A stretch of 54,940 nucleotides of DNA from NCBI GenBank assembly GCA_902768975.1, contig CACXMZ010000003.1, forward strand, positions 1 through 54,940, given 5' to 3'. Positions 10,517 to 19,640 of this stretch are shown here, in pieces (positions within the stretch are counted from its first letter, which is position 1; each line of letters begins with the position of its first letter). This stretch comes from an uncultured Coriobacteriaceae bacterium. Lineage in GTDB: Bacteria; Actinomycetota; Coriobacteriia; Coriobacteriales; Eggerthellaceae. The translations under genes were made by a program, and so were the position numbers. The notes below the pieces were generated by a model. That model was not told the DNA's origin. It did no database searches and saw only the letters and a list, made by a program, of their open reading frames with translations.

Positions 10517-10609
10517 CGCGAAATACCAGCCGTTTTGGTAAGGTTTGTTGTGCAGAATTGAACGAGACGAGCCCCTTGATTAATGGGCTGGGCGGACAGG
10601 ATTAACTAC

Positions 10610-11560
10610 ATGGGAAAAGTCGTTCGCATAGGTACACGGGGAAGCAAGCTGGCGCTGTGGCAGGCCAATTACGTGGCCGATCTGCTACGCGCGGCGGTGC
10701 CCGACTACACCTTTGAAGTTGAAATCGTTAAAACCAAGGGCGACAAAATTCTTGACGTGGCCCTTTCCAAGATTGGTGACAAGGGTCTGTTTACCAAAGA
10801 ACTTGAAGTGGGCCTGCTGGAAGGCAGTGTGGATTTGTGCGTGCATTCCTGTAAAGACATGCCCACCCAGTTGCCCGAAGGCCTGGCGCTCGTTGCCATG
10901 CCACCGCGCGTGGACCCGCGCGACAGCTTGGTGGCGCCCACTGAAGGCATGACCATTGAAACCATTCCCACTGGAGCGCGCGTGGCAACAGGTTCCCTGC
11001 GCCGCGTGGCCCAGCTGGCACGTCTGCGCCCCGACGTGGAAATCTGTGAAATCCGTGGCAATGTGGACACGCGCATTGGCAAGGTGGTCGAAGGTGAATT
11101 CGACTGCGCCATTTTGGCGGCGGCGGGCATTACGCGCCTGGGTCTGACGGAACATATTTCATCTATTATCCCTGTTGAAACCATGATTCCTGCGGTGGGC
11201 CAGGGCGCCATTGTTATTGAGGCGCGCGAAAACGACGAAGAAATTGCCCAACTGTGCGCCACTATTGCCGACGCGAATACCATGCGCGCCGTGGAAGCGG
11301 AACGCATTGTCCTGGCCGAGCTGGAAGGCGGCTGTCAGGTGCCTATGGGTGCCCACGCCCGCCAGGAAAACCGCGACGGGCACGACCTGTTTGTGCTCGA
11401 TGCCTTTGTGGCTTCCCTCGATGGCCAGCGCTTGGTGCGCACCCACCTGGAAGGCAGCGCAGAAAGTTCGCAGGCGCTTGCCAAGCAGGCGGTGGCGGAC
11501 TTGCGCGAACAGGGCGCCGAAGAAATCTTGGAAGAAATACGTGTGATGGAAGGTCAATAA
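10610..11560 (+). CDS. hemC: Porphobilinogen deaminase (hydroxymethylbilane synthase)
   Basis: A 316-residue cytosolic enzyme that joins four porphobilinogens into hydroxymethylbilane. The ATG at 10610 is chosen because the family N-terminus begins there (VVRIGTRGSKLALWQAN); an ATG at 10583 would add nine residues. Seen motifs: KTKGDKI, DLCVHSCKDMPTQLP (catalytic Asp region), GSLRRVAQL, EIRGNVDTR, and the dipyrromethane-cofactor Cys242 in EGGCQVPMGAHA. Full length for the family. First gene of the heme cluster; its stop overlaps the next start (TAATG). No terminator-like structure separates it from downstream genes. Confidence 0.95.
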   Translation: MGKVVRIGTRGSKLALWQANYVADLLRAAVPDYTFEVEIVKTKGDKILDVALSKIGDKGLFTKELEVGLLEGSVDLCVHSCKDMPTQLPEGLALVAMPPRVDPRDSLVAPTEGMTIETIPTGARVATGSLRRVAQLARLRPDVEICEIRGNVDTRIGKVVEGEFDCAILAAAGITRLGLTEHISSIIPVETMIPAVGQGAIVIEARENDEEIAQLCATIADANTMRAVEAERIVLAELEGGCQVPMGAHARQENRDGHDLFVLDAFVASLDGQRLVRTHLEGSAESSQALAKQAVADLREQGAEEILEEIRVMEGQ

Positions 11561-15643: not shown

Positions 15644-17083
15644 ATGGCGGGCGCATTGCACGACATGATGGAAGCTGCGCGCGACGAAGCAGAGCGCGCG
15701 GGCAAGCTAGGGGGCGAAAGTGCCCCTGCCGGGCATGGCGGGCACCCTGGCGGGCATCCAGCTGGTATTCCCAAAGTGGGGAAGATGCCTGACTTCGTAA
15801 AGAAGATGCTTGAAAAGGGCGAAGGAGCGGGCGGCCACCCTGGTGGACACCCTGGCGGCCACCCTGGCGGCCACCCGGGCGGGCACCCTGGTGGTGCACA
15901 CAAGCATAGTGCAGCAGGGCGTGGCATGCGCCCTGGCGGCGGCGAAGCGGCCCAGGCCTACGAAGCCCGTACAGGCATTAAGGCGCCGCGCATCATTGCC
16001 TGGGAAATCACCCGCAGCTGCAACCTAAGTTGCGCCCATTGTCGTGCGGCGGCCGAATTTGGTTCGTACCCGGGCGAACTTTCGCTCGACGAAATCAAGG
16101 CGGTCATCGACGACATCGCCTCCATTACCAACCCCATCCTCATTGTGACGGGTGGCGAACCGTTCATGCGTCCCGATATTTGGGACATTATCGACTACGC
16201 GCGCGAAAAGGGCTGCATGCCCGTGGTGGGTACCAACGGCACCATCATCACCGAAGACATCGCGCAGAAGATGGCCGAACATGGCATTACGCGCATGTCG
16301 GTTTCGCTCGATTTCCCCGACGCGGAACGCCACGACGGCTTCCGCGGTCTTGAAGGCAGTTTCGACGAAGCTATTCGCGGCATAAAGCTGGCGCAGGAAC
16401 ATGGTGTGGGCGTGCAAATTAACACGACCGTGACCAAGCAGAACGCCGAAACACTCCAAGACATGCACGACTTAGCGTTGGACTTGGGCGCCGAAGCCTT
16501 CCATCCATTCTTGCTGGTGCCTACGGGCCGTGGCGAAAATCTGCGCGACATCGAACTTTCGCCTGAAGAATATGAAGAGGTGCTGACCTGGGCATACTAC
16601 AAACAAAAGGCAAGCCCCATGCACTTCAAACCCACCGATTCGCCGCAGTACTACCGCATTGCGCACCAGAAGGCGCGTGAAGAAGGCAGCAAGGTAAGCG
16701 CCGAACAGTATGGCATGGAAGCCATGACGCGCGGTTGCCTGGGTGGCATTACCTTCTGCTTTATTTCCCATGTGGGTGACGTGCAGCCTTGCGGCTATTT
16801 CGACATGCAGCTGGGCAATGTGAAGGAACGTCCCTTCAGTGAAATCTGGACCGACTCGCCCGTGTTTGCCGACCTGCGCGACTATTCCAAGCTGAAGGGT
16901 AAGTGCGGCGCCTGCGAATACAAGGGTGTGTGTGGAGGTTGTCGTGCGCGCGCCCTTTCCGCAACGGGCGACTACATGGAAGAGGAGCCCTATTGCGCCT
17001 ACGTGCCGCGTGCCCTACGCGCTGGCCAGGGCGAAGTAATGGAAGCAGCCGAAATGACCGAAGCCGAGGGGGTGGAGTCCTAG
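15644..17083 (+). CDS. ahbD: Radical SAM heme synthase AhbD with His-Gly-Pro-rich N-terminal extension
   Basis: A 479-residue protein. Residues ~108-465 are an AhbD-type radical SAM enzyme: Cys126-Cys130-Cys133 (SCNLSCAHCRAA), LIVTGGEPFMRPD, VGTNGTIIT, and a C-terminal auxiliary-cluster region (GCLGGITFCFISHVGDVQPC, GKCGACEYKGVCGGCRAR). AhbD converts the two propionates of Fe-coproporphyrin III to vinyls, making heme b. Residues 1-105 are unusual: HGGHPGGHPAG at 31-41, a short amphipathic piece (VGKMPDFVKKMLEKG), then five GGHP repeats at 63-82 and AHKHS. The repeat could bind metal or heme; this is inference. Its stop lies 1 bp before the next start. Confidence 0.85.
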   Translation: MAGALHDMMEAARDEAERAGKLGGESAPAGHGGHPGGHPAGIPKVGKMPDFVKKMLEKGEGAGGHPGGHPGGHPGGHPGGHPGGAHKHSAAGRGMRPGGGEAAQAYEARTGIKAPRIIAWEITRSCNLSCAHCRAAAEFGSYPGELSLDEIKAVIDDIASITNPILIVTGGEPFMRPDIWDIIDYAREKGCMPVVGTNGTIITEDIAQKMAEHGITRMSVSLDFPDAERHDGFRGLEGSFDEAIRGIKLAQEHGVGVQINTTVTKQNAETLQDMHDLALDLGAEAFHPFLLVPTGRGENLRDIELSPEEYEEVLTWAYYKQKASPMHFKPTDSPQYYRIAHQKAREEGSKVSAEQYGMEAMTRGCLGGITFCFISHVGDVQPCGYFDMQLGNVKERPFSEIWTDSPVFADLRDYSKLKGKCGACEYKGVCGGCRARALSATGDYMEEEPYCAYVPRALRAGQGEVMEAAEMTEAEGVES

Positions 17084-17084
17084 T

Positions 17085-18344
17085 ATGAAGGATACGCTCC
17101 AGCAGCAAGTGCTCGACACCATTCAGTCGAACTTCCCTTTGGAAGAAGATCCTTACGGTGTGCTCGCCGCTCAGTTTGGCGCAACGCGCGACGAAATCCA
17201 GGACGCCGTTTGTAGCCTGTGCTTTAGCGGGGGTGTGCGTCGTATTGGCGCTTCCTTCGACTCGCGCAAGCTGGGTTACACGTCTACGCTGTGTGCTCTG
17301 GCAGTTCCTGGTGGGGAAGACGAAGTCCTGCGTGCGGCAGAAATCATTAGCACCTTCCATGGCGTGACGCACAACTATGGGCGCGCGCACCGTTACAACA
17401 TTTGGTTCACCCTCATTACGCGTTCAGTGGAAGAAAAGCAAGCCATTCTGGATGCCATTCGTGAACAGACGGGCTGCGACGACTTGCTCGACATGCCTTC
17501 CATTCGCAAGTACAAGATTGCGGTGGACTTTGGGCGCCATCGTGCCAAGAGTAATGGTGGCGCAGGCGGCCACGGGCATGGGTCCAGCCACGCTTCTTCG
17601 AGCGGCCACGGGCATGGCCACGCTGCCGCCCACGGCAATGGTGCCGCCCAGTCAAGCCAGGATGCGGGCGCACCCTTTAACGCTGAAGACGCTTTCGACG
17701 TAGCCCTGGTCCGCTGGGCCCAGGACGACATTGCCCGCGACCAATACGGCGACCTTATCGACGACCCTTACATAGCGGGCGCAGCTTGCTTAAACGAAAA
17801 ACTGGGGCGCAATGACGTGACCCCCGCCAAGATTATCGGGCGCCTGCGTGAACTGAAGGCCCAGGGCACCGTCCGTCGTTTTGGCGCCATGGTGCGCCAC
17901 CATGTTATTGGCTTTGCCTTTAATAGCATGACGGTATGGAATGTGCCCGACGAATATGTGGACCAGGCGGGCGAGCTGTTCGCAAGCGCGCACTTTGTTT
18001 CGCATTGCTATACGCGCCATCGCATGGGTAGTTGGAACACCAACCTCTACGCTATGACGCACGCGCAAACCGCCGAAGAACTGGTAAGCAATATCGAAAC
18101 CTTGCAAACCATGCTTGAAACGTCGGACATTCCCTACGAAGAACACTTCGCGCTGGAAACGACTGCAGAATTCAAGAAAGTTTCGATGCGCTATTTCCTG
18201 CCGTCGCAGGCCTTAAGCGGTGGCTTTACTGCTACCATGACTTCGCCAGCTTTGCAGGAACGCACTGCTCAAGCAAGCGCGAGCCTTGCACCCGACGCAA
18301 GCACGGTGCACGACGCGCCTACTGCTTGCCCTTATGCTGTTTAG
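17085..18344 (+). CDS. ahbAB: Siroheme decarboxylase, AhbA-AhbB single-chain fusion
   Basis: A 419-residue protein made of two AsnC/Lrp-like halves. Residues ~1-150 are AhbA-like (VCSLCFSGGVRRIGASFDSR, THNYGRAHRYNIWFTL); residues ~203-395 are AhbB-like (GTVRRFGAMVRHHVIGFAFN, HCYTRHRMGSWNTNLYAMTH). The dimer normally formed by separate AhbA and AhbB removes two acetate carboxyls from siroheme to give 12,18-didecarboxysiroheme. The His pairs in both halves sit where substrate-binding residues are expected. The join (~152-200) is a Gly/His linker with GGHGHG and SGHGHGHAAAHG. The C-terminal ~25 residues after YFLPS are low complexity. Overlap-like spacing with ahbD and 9 bp to hemL show one operon. 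Confidence 0.85.
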   Translation: MKDTLQQQVLDTIQSNFPLEEDPYGVLAAQFGATRDEIQDAVCSLCFSGGVRRIGASFDSRKLGYTSTLCALAVPGGEDEVLRAAEIISTFHGVTHNYGRAHRYNIWFTLITRSVEEKQAILDAIREQTGCDDLLDMPSIRKYKIAVDFGRHRAKSNGGAGGHGHGSSHASSSGHGHGHAAAHGNGAAQSSQDAGAPFNAEDAFDVALVRWAQDDIARDQYGDLIDDPYIAGAACLNEKLGRNDVTPAKIIGRLRELKAQGTVRRFGAMVRHHVIGFAFNSMTVWNVPDEYVDQAGELFASAHFVSHCYTRHRMGSWNTNLYAMTHAQTAEELVSNIETLQTMLETSDIPYEEHFALETTAEFKKVSMRYFLPSQALSGGFTATMTSPALQERTAQASASLAPDASTVHDAPTACPYAV

Positions 18345-18353
18345 GAGGTTCCT

Positions 18354-19640
18354 ATGCTTGACCATAGCAAGTCCCAAGCCGACTTCGCCCATGCCCAAAC
18401 ACTCATCCCCGGTGGCGTTAATTCGCCCGTGCGCGCGTTCGCAAGCGTGGGTACGAACCCGGTGTTTTACGACCATGCTGAAGGGAGCCACATCTGGGAC
18501 GTGGACGGCAATGAATACGTCGACTTCGTGAGTTCTTGGGGTCCCATGATTTTGGGGCATCGCCCAGCGGCTGTTGAAGAAGCGGTGCGTGCCCAGCTTG
18601 GCCGCGGTGTTTCCTATGGTGCACCGTGCGAAGAAGAAATTGCGCTCGCAGAAAAGATTATCGAAGTGGTGCCTGCGGCTGAAAAAGTTCGCATGGTTTC
18701 AAGCGGCACCGAAGCCGTTATGTCGGCCCTGCGTTTGGCACGTGGCTTCACGGGGCGCGACAAGATTATCAAGTTCGAAGGCTGCTACCACGGCCATTCC
18801 GACGCGCTGCTCGTAAGCGCGGGAAGCGGCGTGGCAACCCTGGGGATTCCTGGTACGCCGGGCGTAACGGCGGGTGCTGCGGCCGACACGGTCGTACTGC
18901 CTTATAACGACTTGGAAGCGGTTCAGCAGGCTTTCGAAGCAGCGCCGGGCGCCTTTGCTGCGGTGGTGTTGGAGCCCATCGCGGGCAATATGGGCGTGGT
19001 GCCGCCTGCGGAAGGTTACCTGCAGGGCCTGCGCGACTTGTGCACTCAGCACGACGTGCTGCTTATCTTCGACGAAGTTATTACGGGCTTCCGTGCTGCC
19101 CTCGGTGGCGCGCAGGAGCTTTATGGTGTGCTGCCAGACCTGTGCACCTTTGGCAAGATTATTGGCGGCGGCTTCCCCGTGGGTTGCTTTGCGGGCCGTG
19201 CCGACATTATGGACACGCTGGCACCGGTGGGCCCCGTGTATCAGGCGGGTACTCTTTCGGGTAACCCCGTGGCTATGGTGGCAGGCCTTGCCCAGCTTAC
19301 CGAACTCGAAAAGCCAGGCACCTATGAGCGCCTGGAAGCATTGGGCGCGCGCCTTGAAGCGGGCCTGCAAGAAGCTATTGAAGCTGCCGGCATTGAAGCC
19401 TGCGTTAATCGCGCTGGCTCGGTGGCGACCTTGTTCTTTAGCGCCGGGCCTATTCGCAATTGGACGGACGCGGCGGCTTGCGACACGGAAAGCTTTGCGC
19501 GCTACTTCCGTGGCATGCTCGAACGTGGTTTCCTTATTGCGCCGAGCCAGTATGAAGCCCTGTTCGTAAGTACGGCGCACACTGAAGAAGAAATCGATGC
19601 TTTTACGGCGGCCGCAAAAGAGGTTTTGGCGAACCTGTAA
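18354..19640 (+). CDS. hemL: Glutamate-1-semialdehyde 2,1-aminomutase
   Basis: A 428-residue PLP enzyme that converts glutamate-1-semialdehyde to 5-aminolevulinate, the first committed tetrapyrrole precursor. Motifs: [11 protein letters not shown] at the N-terminus, [41 protein letters not shown] (PLP Asp), and the Schiff-base lysine in [13 protein letters not shown]. Normal length. TAGGAGGTT precedes the ATG. It is the last gene of the cluster, followed by a strong terminator. Its usual partner, glutamyl-tRNA reductase (hemA), is not in the cluster. Confidence 0.95.

Follow-up and report, generated by a model that had tools for sequence, protein, structure and literature searches.

The window, that is, the whole stretch of 54,940 nucleotides that was analysed, contains a gene in which AhbA and AhbB, the two halves of siroheme decarboxylase, appear to be joined in one chain by a segment rich in glycine and histidine. 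This raises the question whether the gene encodes a complete enzyme, and what the joining segment and its histidines might contribute to it. The gene, ahbAB (17085-18344, plus strand), was translated and found to encode 419 amino acids, with an ATG start codon and 0 internal stops. The ATG lies one base past the stop codon of ahbD, and a GGAG stretch is located 5' of it. The protein is composed of the following parts:

17085..17540, plus strand: AhbA half, residues 1-152; HTH and RAM-like ferredoxin domain; matched by NF040708 and 4czd_A; pLDDT mostly >90
H96, Y98, R100: HNYGR motif of the AhbA half; invariant in 31 sequences
17541..17672, plus strand: Gly/His-rich linker, residues 153-196; 7 His, 12 Gly; predicted to be disordered
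17673..18203, plus strand: AhbB half, residues 197-373; matched by NF040707; HCYTR motif (H307, Y309, R311); K364/K365
18204..18344, plus strand: C-terminal tail of ~46 residues, ending in TACPYAV; mostly predicted to be disordered; not conserved

Both halves exceeded the cut-offs of the respective NCBIfam equivalog models. The AhbA model NF040708 scored 174.9 bits over residues 7-149 (cut-off 140), and the AhbB model NF040707 scored 181 bits over residues 244-370 (cut-off 125). Pfam recognized a NirDL-like HTH domain and two AsnC-like ligand domains. The HxYxR motifs of both halves as well as K364/K365 were invariant in 31/31 aligned fused orthologues; they correspond to the HxYxR and C-terminal lysine residues whose roles are discussed in PMC4145669 (Palmer et al. 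2014). The 31-sequence alignment was also used as input for an AlphaFold model, which had a mean pLDDT of 84. Both halves were modelled confidently, most residues having values >90, and values <50 were obtained for residues 161-192 and 382-419. The best Foldseek matches of the model were the single-chain NirDL structures 4ch7 and 4czc (E 6e-25, TM 0.80 on target), followed by AhbA/B (4czd), and the predicted fold is an Lrp/AsnC-like HTH plus RAM arrangement paired as a pseudo-dimer. The cut-offs, the alignment, the model and the Foldseek search together support the assignment as AhbA-AhbB and the dimer within one chain that a preliminary description of this DNA had proposed. The C-terminal TACPYAV was considered as a CP heme regulatory motif and rejected: relatives end earlier or differently, the nearest one with CSRAV and others without any tail.

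The gene is part of a heme operon in which all genes have the same direction, with ahbC and ahbD directly upstream of ahbAB:

10583..11560, plus strand: hemC, hydroxymethylbilane synthase; TIGR00212, 332.4 bits
11254..13113, plus strand: cobA-hemD, uroporphyrinogen-III methyltransferase/synthase; TIGR01469, PF02602
13150..14130, plus strand: hemB, porphobilinogen synthase; NF006762
14379..15635, plus strand: ahbC, 12,18-didecarboxysiroheme deacetylase; TIGR04546, 698.9 bits (cut-off 650)
15644..17083, plus strand: ahbD, heme b synthase (radical SAM/SPASM); TIGR04545, 498.7 bits as protein and 500 in the genome search (cut-off 500)
17085..18344, plus strand: ahbAB
18354..19640, plus strand: hemL, glutamate-1-semialdehyde 2,1-aminomutase; TIGR00713, 611 bits

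The true start of cobA-hemD is probably later than the first GTG, because the matched part begins near residue 103. The genome (1.89 Mb, 96% complete, 10 contigs) has Eggerthellaceae MAGs from deer gut as its closest named relatives. A search of this 96% complete genome yielded no match to hemE and, for cytochrome cd1, no match to PF02239. Therefore, the product should be heme b, the absence of these matches pointing away from the classical route and from heme d1, and a heme d1 role for ahbAB was rejected. Taken together, the ahbAB product is very probably a one-chain siroheme decarboxylase that serves the anaerobic synthesis of heme b via siroheme. Its catalytic activity is predicted by homology, and its two halves would most likely pair within the molecule, joined by a disordered tether.

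The fusion as such turned out not to be new. According to the preliminary description, characterised siroheme decarboxylases are heterodimers of two proteins. This is wrong, as Hydrogenobacter NirDL (PDB 4ch7/4czc) is a fused enzyme with a solved structure (PMC4835899) and most archaea have the fused form. The fusion is present in almost all heme-making archaea except methanogens (PMC3942049, Kuhner et al. 2014; PMC3004389, Storbeck et al. 2010), and it was confirmed for archaea in a 2024 survey (PMC11237513). AhbA and AhbB were also fused in all of the 31 sequences that we aligned; in one more distant genome (G039), the two halves lie in different frames. The implied novelty was thus not borne out: the AhbA-AhbB fusion is already known, widespread and structurally solved.

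The linker (RAKSNGGAGGHGHGSSHASSSGHGHGHAAAHGNGAAQSSQDAGA, residues 153-196) comprises 44 amino acids by translation, close to the ~48 residues rich in Gly-His pairs that had been described. At the genome's histidine content of 1.96%, the binomial probability of at least 7 histidines in 44 residues is about 2e-5. Because the reading frame is intact, both halves are above the cut-offs and the linker histidines are beyond chance, the initial observation was correct. Over ~450 kb of the genome (24%), low-complexity stretches of Gly and His numbered only three, i.e. the ahbAB linker, the N-terminus of AhbD, and a MarR-like regulator beside cydB; the part of this background scan with the regulator had been picked because the pattern had already matched there. 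The regulator (L106:8351-8956; contig C9 near 48.4 kb) is encoded directly 3' of a gene for a cydB-like cytochrome bd subunit. It contains the insert GPHGGPHGGRCGHGPHGHGHGHGKCRKGHGK, the only other in-frame GHGH stretch found in the genome, which is possibly a metal- or heme-sensing segment. As a general marker of heme proteins GHGH was rejected: 31 of 60 related genomes have GHGHGH stretches, so that its presence does not single out heme enzymes.

Comparison with relatives revealed that the histidines of the linker are patchily distributed. The nearest relative, G004, has domains ~93% identical to those of ahbAB and a linker of the Gly/His type with 63 amino acids and 10 histidines. The DNA of this linker contains near-exact repeats (CAC GGG AAC GGC AAC GGG CAT GGT), as in a recent expansion. 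Three further genomes of the same genus have linkers of another type (G001, 2 His and no Gly-His pairs; G002 and G003, 0 His each), and their orthologues keep the same catalytic residues. Elsewhere, His-rich linkers were found in G336 and G339 and, weakly, in G351 and G361; most relatives have 0-1 His. A different case is G325 (L045), in which a long His-rich insertion (ARHGHAGASSGVAGHPSGHPGMHPSG...GHPVGHPGG) is located within the HTH region of AhbB and not in the linker. Linker lengths among the relatives range from 13 to about 60 residues, the composition varies freely, and the 31-sequence alignment contains no conserved linker column. On a tree that was built without the linker columns and has open branches, the His-rich state, assigned by a His count threshold that we set, changed at least three times. 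A role of the linker histidines as catalytic or conserved ligands was rejected on the basis of the 0 conserved columns. Since the histidines are patchy and have no conserved position, the property that the linkers share is flexibility. Among the 31 orthologues, the linker histidines are not conserved, and this is one half of what the preliminary description had named as evidence against its own proposal.

A second His-rich segment, missed in the preliminary description, was found on the neighbouring enzyme and is more notable than the linker. AhbD has an N-terminal extension with a His-rich tail (GGHPGGHPGGHPGGHPGGHPGG) consisting of GGHPGGHP repeats (15740-15894 of the window), and a tandem DNA repeat is present in ahbD at 15828-15894. 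The tail motif was searched in the DNA of 395 genomes of the order, and the 30 fetched loci were translated. Every multi-copy array among these 30 loci was the N-terminus of an AhbD, and the other matches were isolated and nearly all apparently in a wrong frame, except for one or two single copies (e.g. in G301). A tail with at least four histidines was found in about 24 of the 25 genomes that have a readable start of ahbD next to ahbAB. Three genomes (G008, G010, G012) contain a more distant AhbD-like protein that has no room for a tail. Most AhbD proteins from beyond the order have no tail; weak tails occur in three genomes from another order of the class. A strong HPGGHP tail was observed on the AhbD of G616 (L114), from another family of the phylum, which represents an independent gain or a transfer. 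Between adjacent repeat units of ahbD, 93 differences fall on the third codon position, 12 on the second and 4 on the first, a count that is biased because the units were chosen partly by their peptide. This pattern speaks against recent slippage and suggests that the peptide was kept while the DNA drifted. On His-rich AhbD and on coriobacterial heme synthesis, the open-access literature yielded nothing relevant beyond PitA, which is discussed below.

What, then, may the linker do? The AhbA and AhbB halves would fold together into a pseudo-dimer as in NirDL and AhbA/B, siroheme would sit in the cavity between them with its iron ligated by a histidine of AhbA, and the HxYxR side chains would remove the carboxyl groups of the acetates at C12 and C18. 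AhbC and, subsequently, AhbD would then convert the product. For the linker, the most likely role is that of a flexible tether, which would be disordered and would keep AhbA and AhbB together at a ratio of 1:1. Its Gly/His make-up would be recent, lineage-specific and dispensable for catalysis, with at most weak metal or heme binding. In the solved heterodimeric enzyme of Desulfovibrio desulfuricans, both halves together build a single tetrapyrrole cavity (PMC4145669), and therefore there are no two separate active sites for a linker to bridge. This single cavity, the lack of conserved histidines, and the same-genus orthologues without Gly-His pairs weaken the earlier proposal that the linker holds iron-tetrapyrrole or metal between active sites. 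However, a purely neutral tether does not readily account for a Gly/His composition well above chance, nor for the His-rich linkers in separate lineages (G336/G339, G351, G361, and the insertion in G325), nor for the His-rich tail that is kept on the next enzyme, AhbD.

The chances are about even that the Gly/His run reflects neutral low-complexity drift, i.e. repeat expansion in a permissive linker that functions by its length and flexibility alone. This is consistent with a Gly/His linker that is common to the window and G004 only and differs in length between them (44 versus 63), with the DNA repeats in G004, and with the freedom of the relatives' linkers in length and composition. On the other hand, the window and G004 hold the same Gly/His composition despite the turnover of their sequences, and His-rich linkers arise in other lineages. 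We regard it as rather doubtful that the linker is a holding site for metal or iron-tetrapyrrole, at which the histidines, together with the AhbD tail, would bind iron, siroheme, the product or heme b and would thereby buffer reactive intermediates or mediate heme feedback. Such a site would fit the presence of 7 histidines in 44 residues, one of only three such stretches in 24% of the genome, and the GGHPGGHP tail, which is present in nearly all readable AhbD orthologues of the order, is nearly specific for AhbD there, and has repeats that differ 93 times at codon position 3 versus 16 times at positions 1 and 2. By analogy, the linker may be able to bind metal or heme: in PitA, a haloarchaeal enzyme of heme synthesis, Co2+ is bound by a His-rich linker (PMC5746218). 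Moreover, the AhbA/B proteins of M. barkeri and D. vulgaris bind heme b away from their active site (PMC4145669). However, these two-chain enzymes still copurify with heme, and therefore heme binding needs no linker. In addition, three same-genus genomes and the majority of the 31 orthologues either lack linker histidines or do not have them in Gly-His pairs, and GHGHGH occurs in about half of the related genomes, as described above. That ahbAB results from an assembly error, a frameshift or a false gene fusion can be dismissed, because no support for this was found in the 10-contig assembly, the frame is intact, the same fusion occurs in 31 sequences including single-contig genomes, and an independently assembled relative has the same linker type, so that the relatives already refute it. 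The Gly/His character of the tether is most plausibly low complexity peculiar to the lineage, which may or may not be accompanied by weak binding of metal or heme.

Fusion of the enzymes goes further in many relatives. AhbD, AhbA and AhbB form one reading frame in 14 genomes of the tree and in G325, single-contig assemblies included. These chains have ~700-1000 amino acids (L008, L025, L034, L046, L005, L006, L035, L036, L047 and others), and the one-chain state changed at least four times on the tree. In the open-access literature searched, AhbD-AhbAB fusions are reported for five Methanomicrobia assemblies only (PMC11237513). The AhbD tail, some AhbAB linkers and the one-chain AhbD-AhbA-AhbB proteins might represent an order-wide physical coupling of successive heme enzymes; iron-tetrapyrrole intermediates would then be retained by disordered His segments and handed from one enzyme to the next. 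We consider such channelling improbable; it is undescribed for the siroheme-dependent heme pathway in the open-access literature searched. Because it has His-rich segments on two enzymes and AhbD-AhbA-AhbB fusions that occur naturally, the lineage lends itself directly to tests of channelling or heme feedback. It thus bears on how reactive iron-tetrapyrrole intermediates are handled among AhbAB, AhbC and AhbD, and on where AhbA/B bind heme b outside the active site (PMC4145669). Taken alone, the linker matters little, because the AhbA-AhbB fusion is already known.

Among the known systems, Hydrogenobacter NirDL is assigned to heme d1 synthesis, whereas cytochrome cd1 was not found in the genome of the window, and no His-rich linker is known for NirDL. 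The enzyme of Hydrogenobacter thermophilus (4ch7, 4czc) is likewise a one-chain siroheme decarboxylase, has the catalytic motifs in common with ahbAB, and is its best structural match. The two share about 24% identity across the alignment, and NirDL is shorter in its solved chain, with 342 residues compared to 419. AhbA/AhbB of D. desulfuricans (4czd, 4un1) share the fold, the HxYxR motifs and the ahb pathway for heme b with ahbAB, and the AhbA half is 45% identical to that of the window, but they are two separate chains without a linker. The archaeal AhbAB (Ahb-NirDH) proteins represent the same gene fusion in a different lineage, the window belonging to a coriobacterial order, and a His-rich linker is not mentioned for them in the available parts of PMC3004389 and PMC11237513. 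AhbAB-AhbD fusions are common to the Methanomicrobia assemblies (PMC11237513) and to relatives of the window in the order. PitA of Haloferax volcanii (ChdC-ABM) is also a heme-synthesis enzyme fused via a flexible His-rich linker, for which Co2+ binding was found (PMC5746218), whereas for the linker of the window it is the composition alone that can be compared. PitA belongs to the unrelated aerobic coproheme route, has other domains, and its heme is assigned to the ABM-like domain and not to the linker (PMC5746218). Genes of similar structure to PitA are found in all sequenced haloarchaea (PMC5746218), whereas linker histidines of AhbAB occur only in the window, in G004 and in a small number of further lineages.
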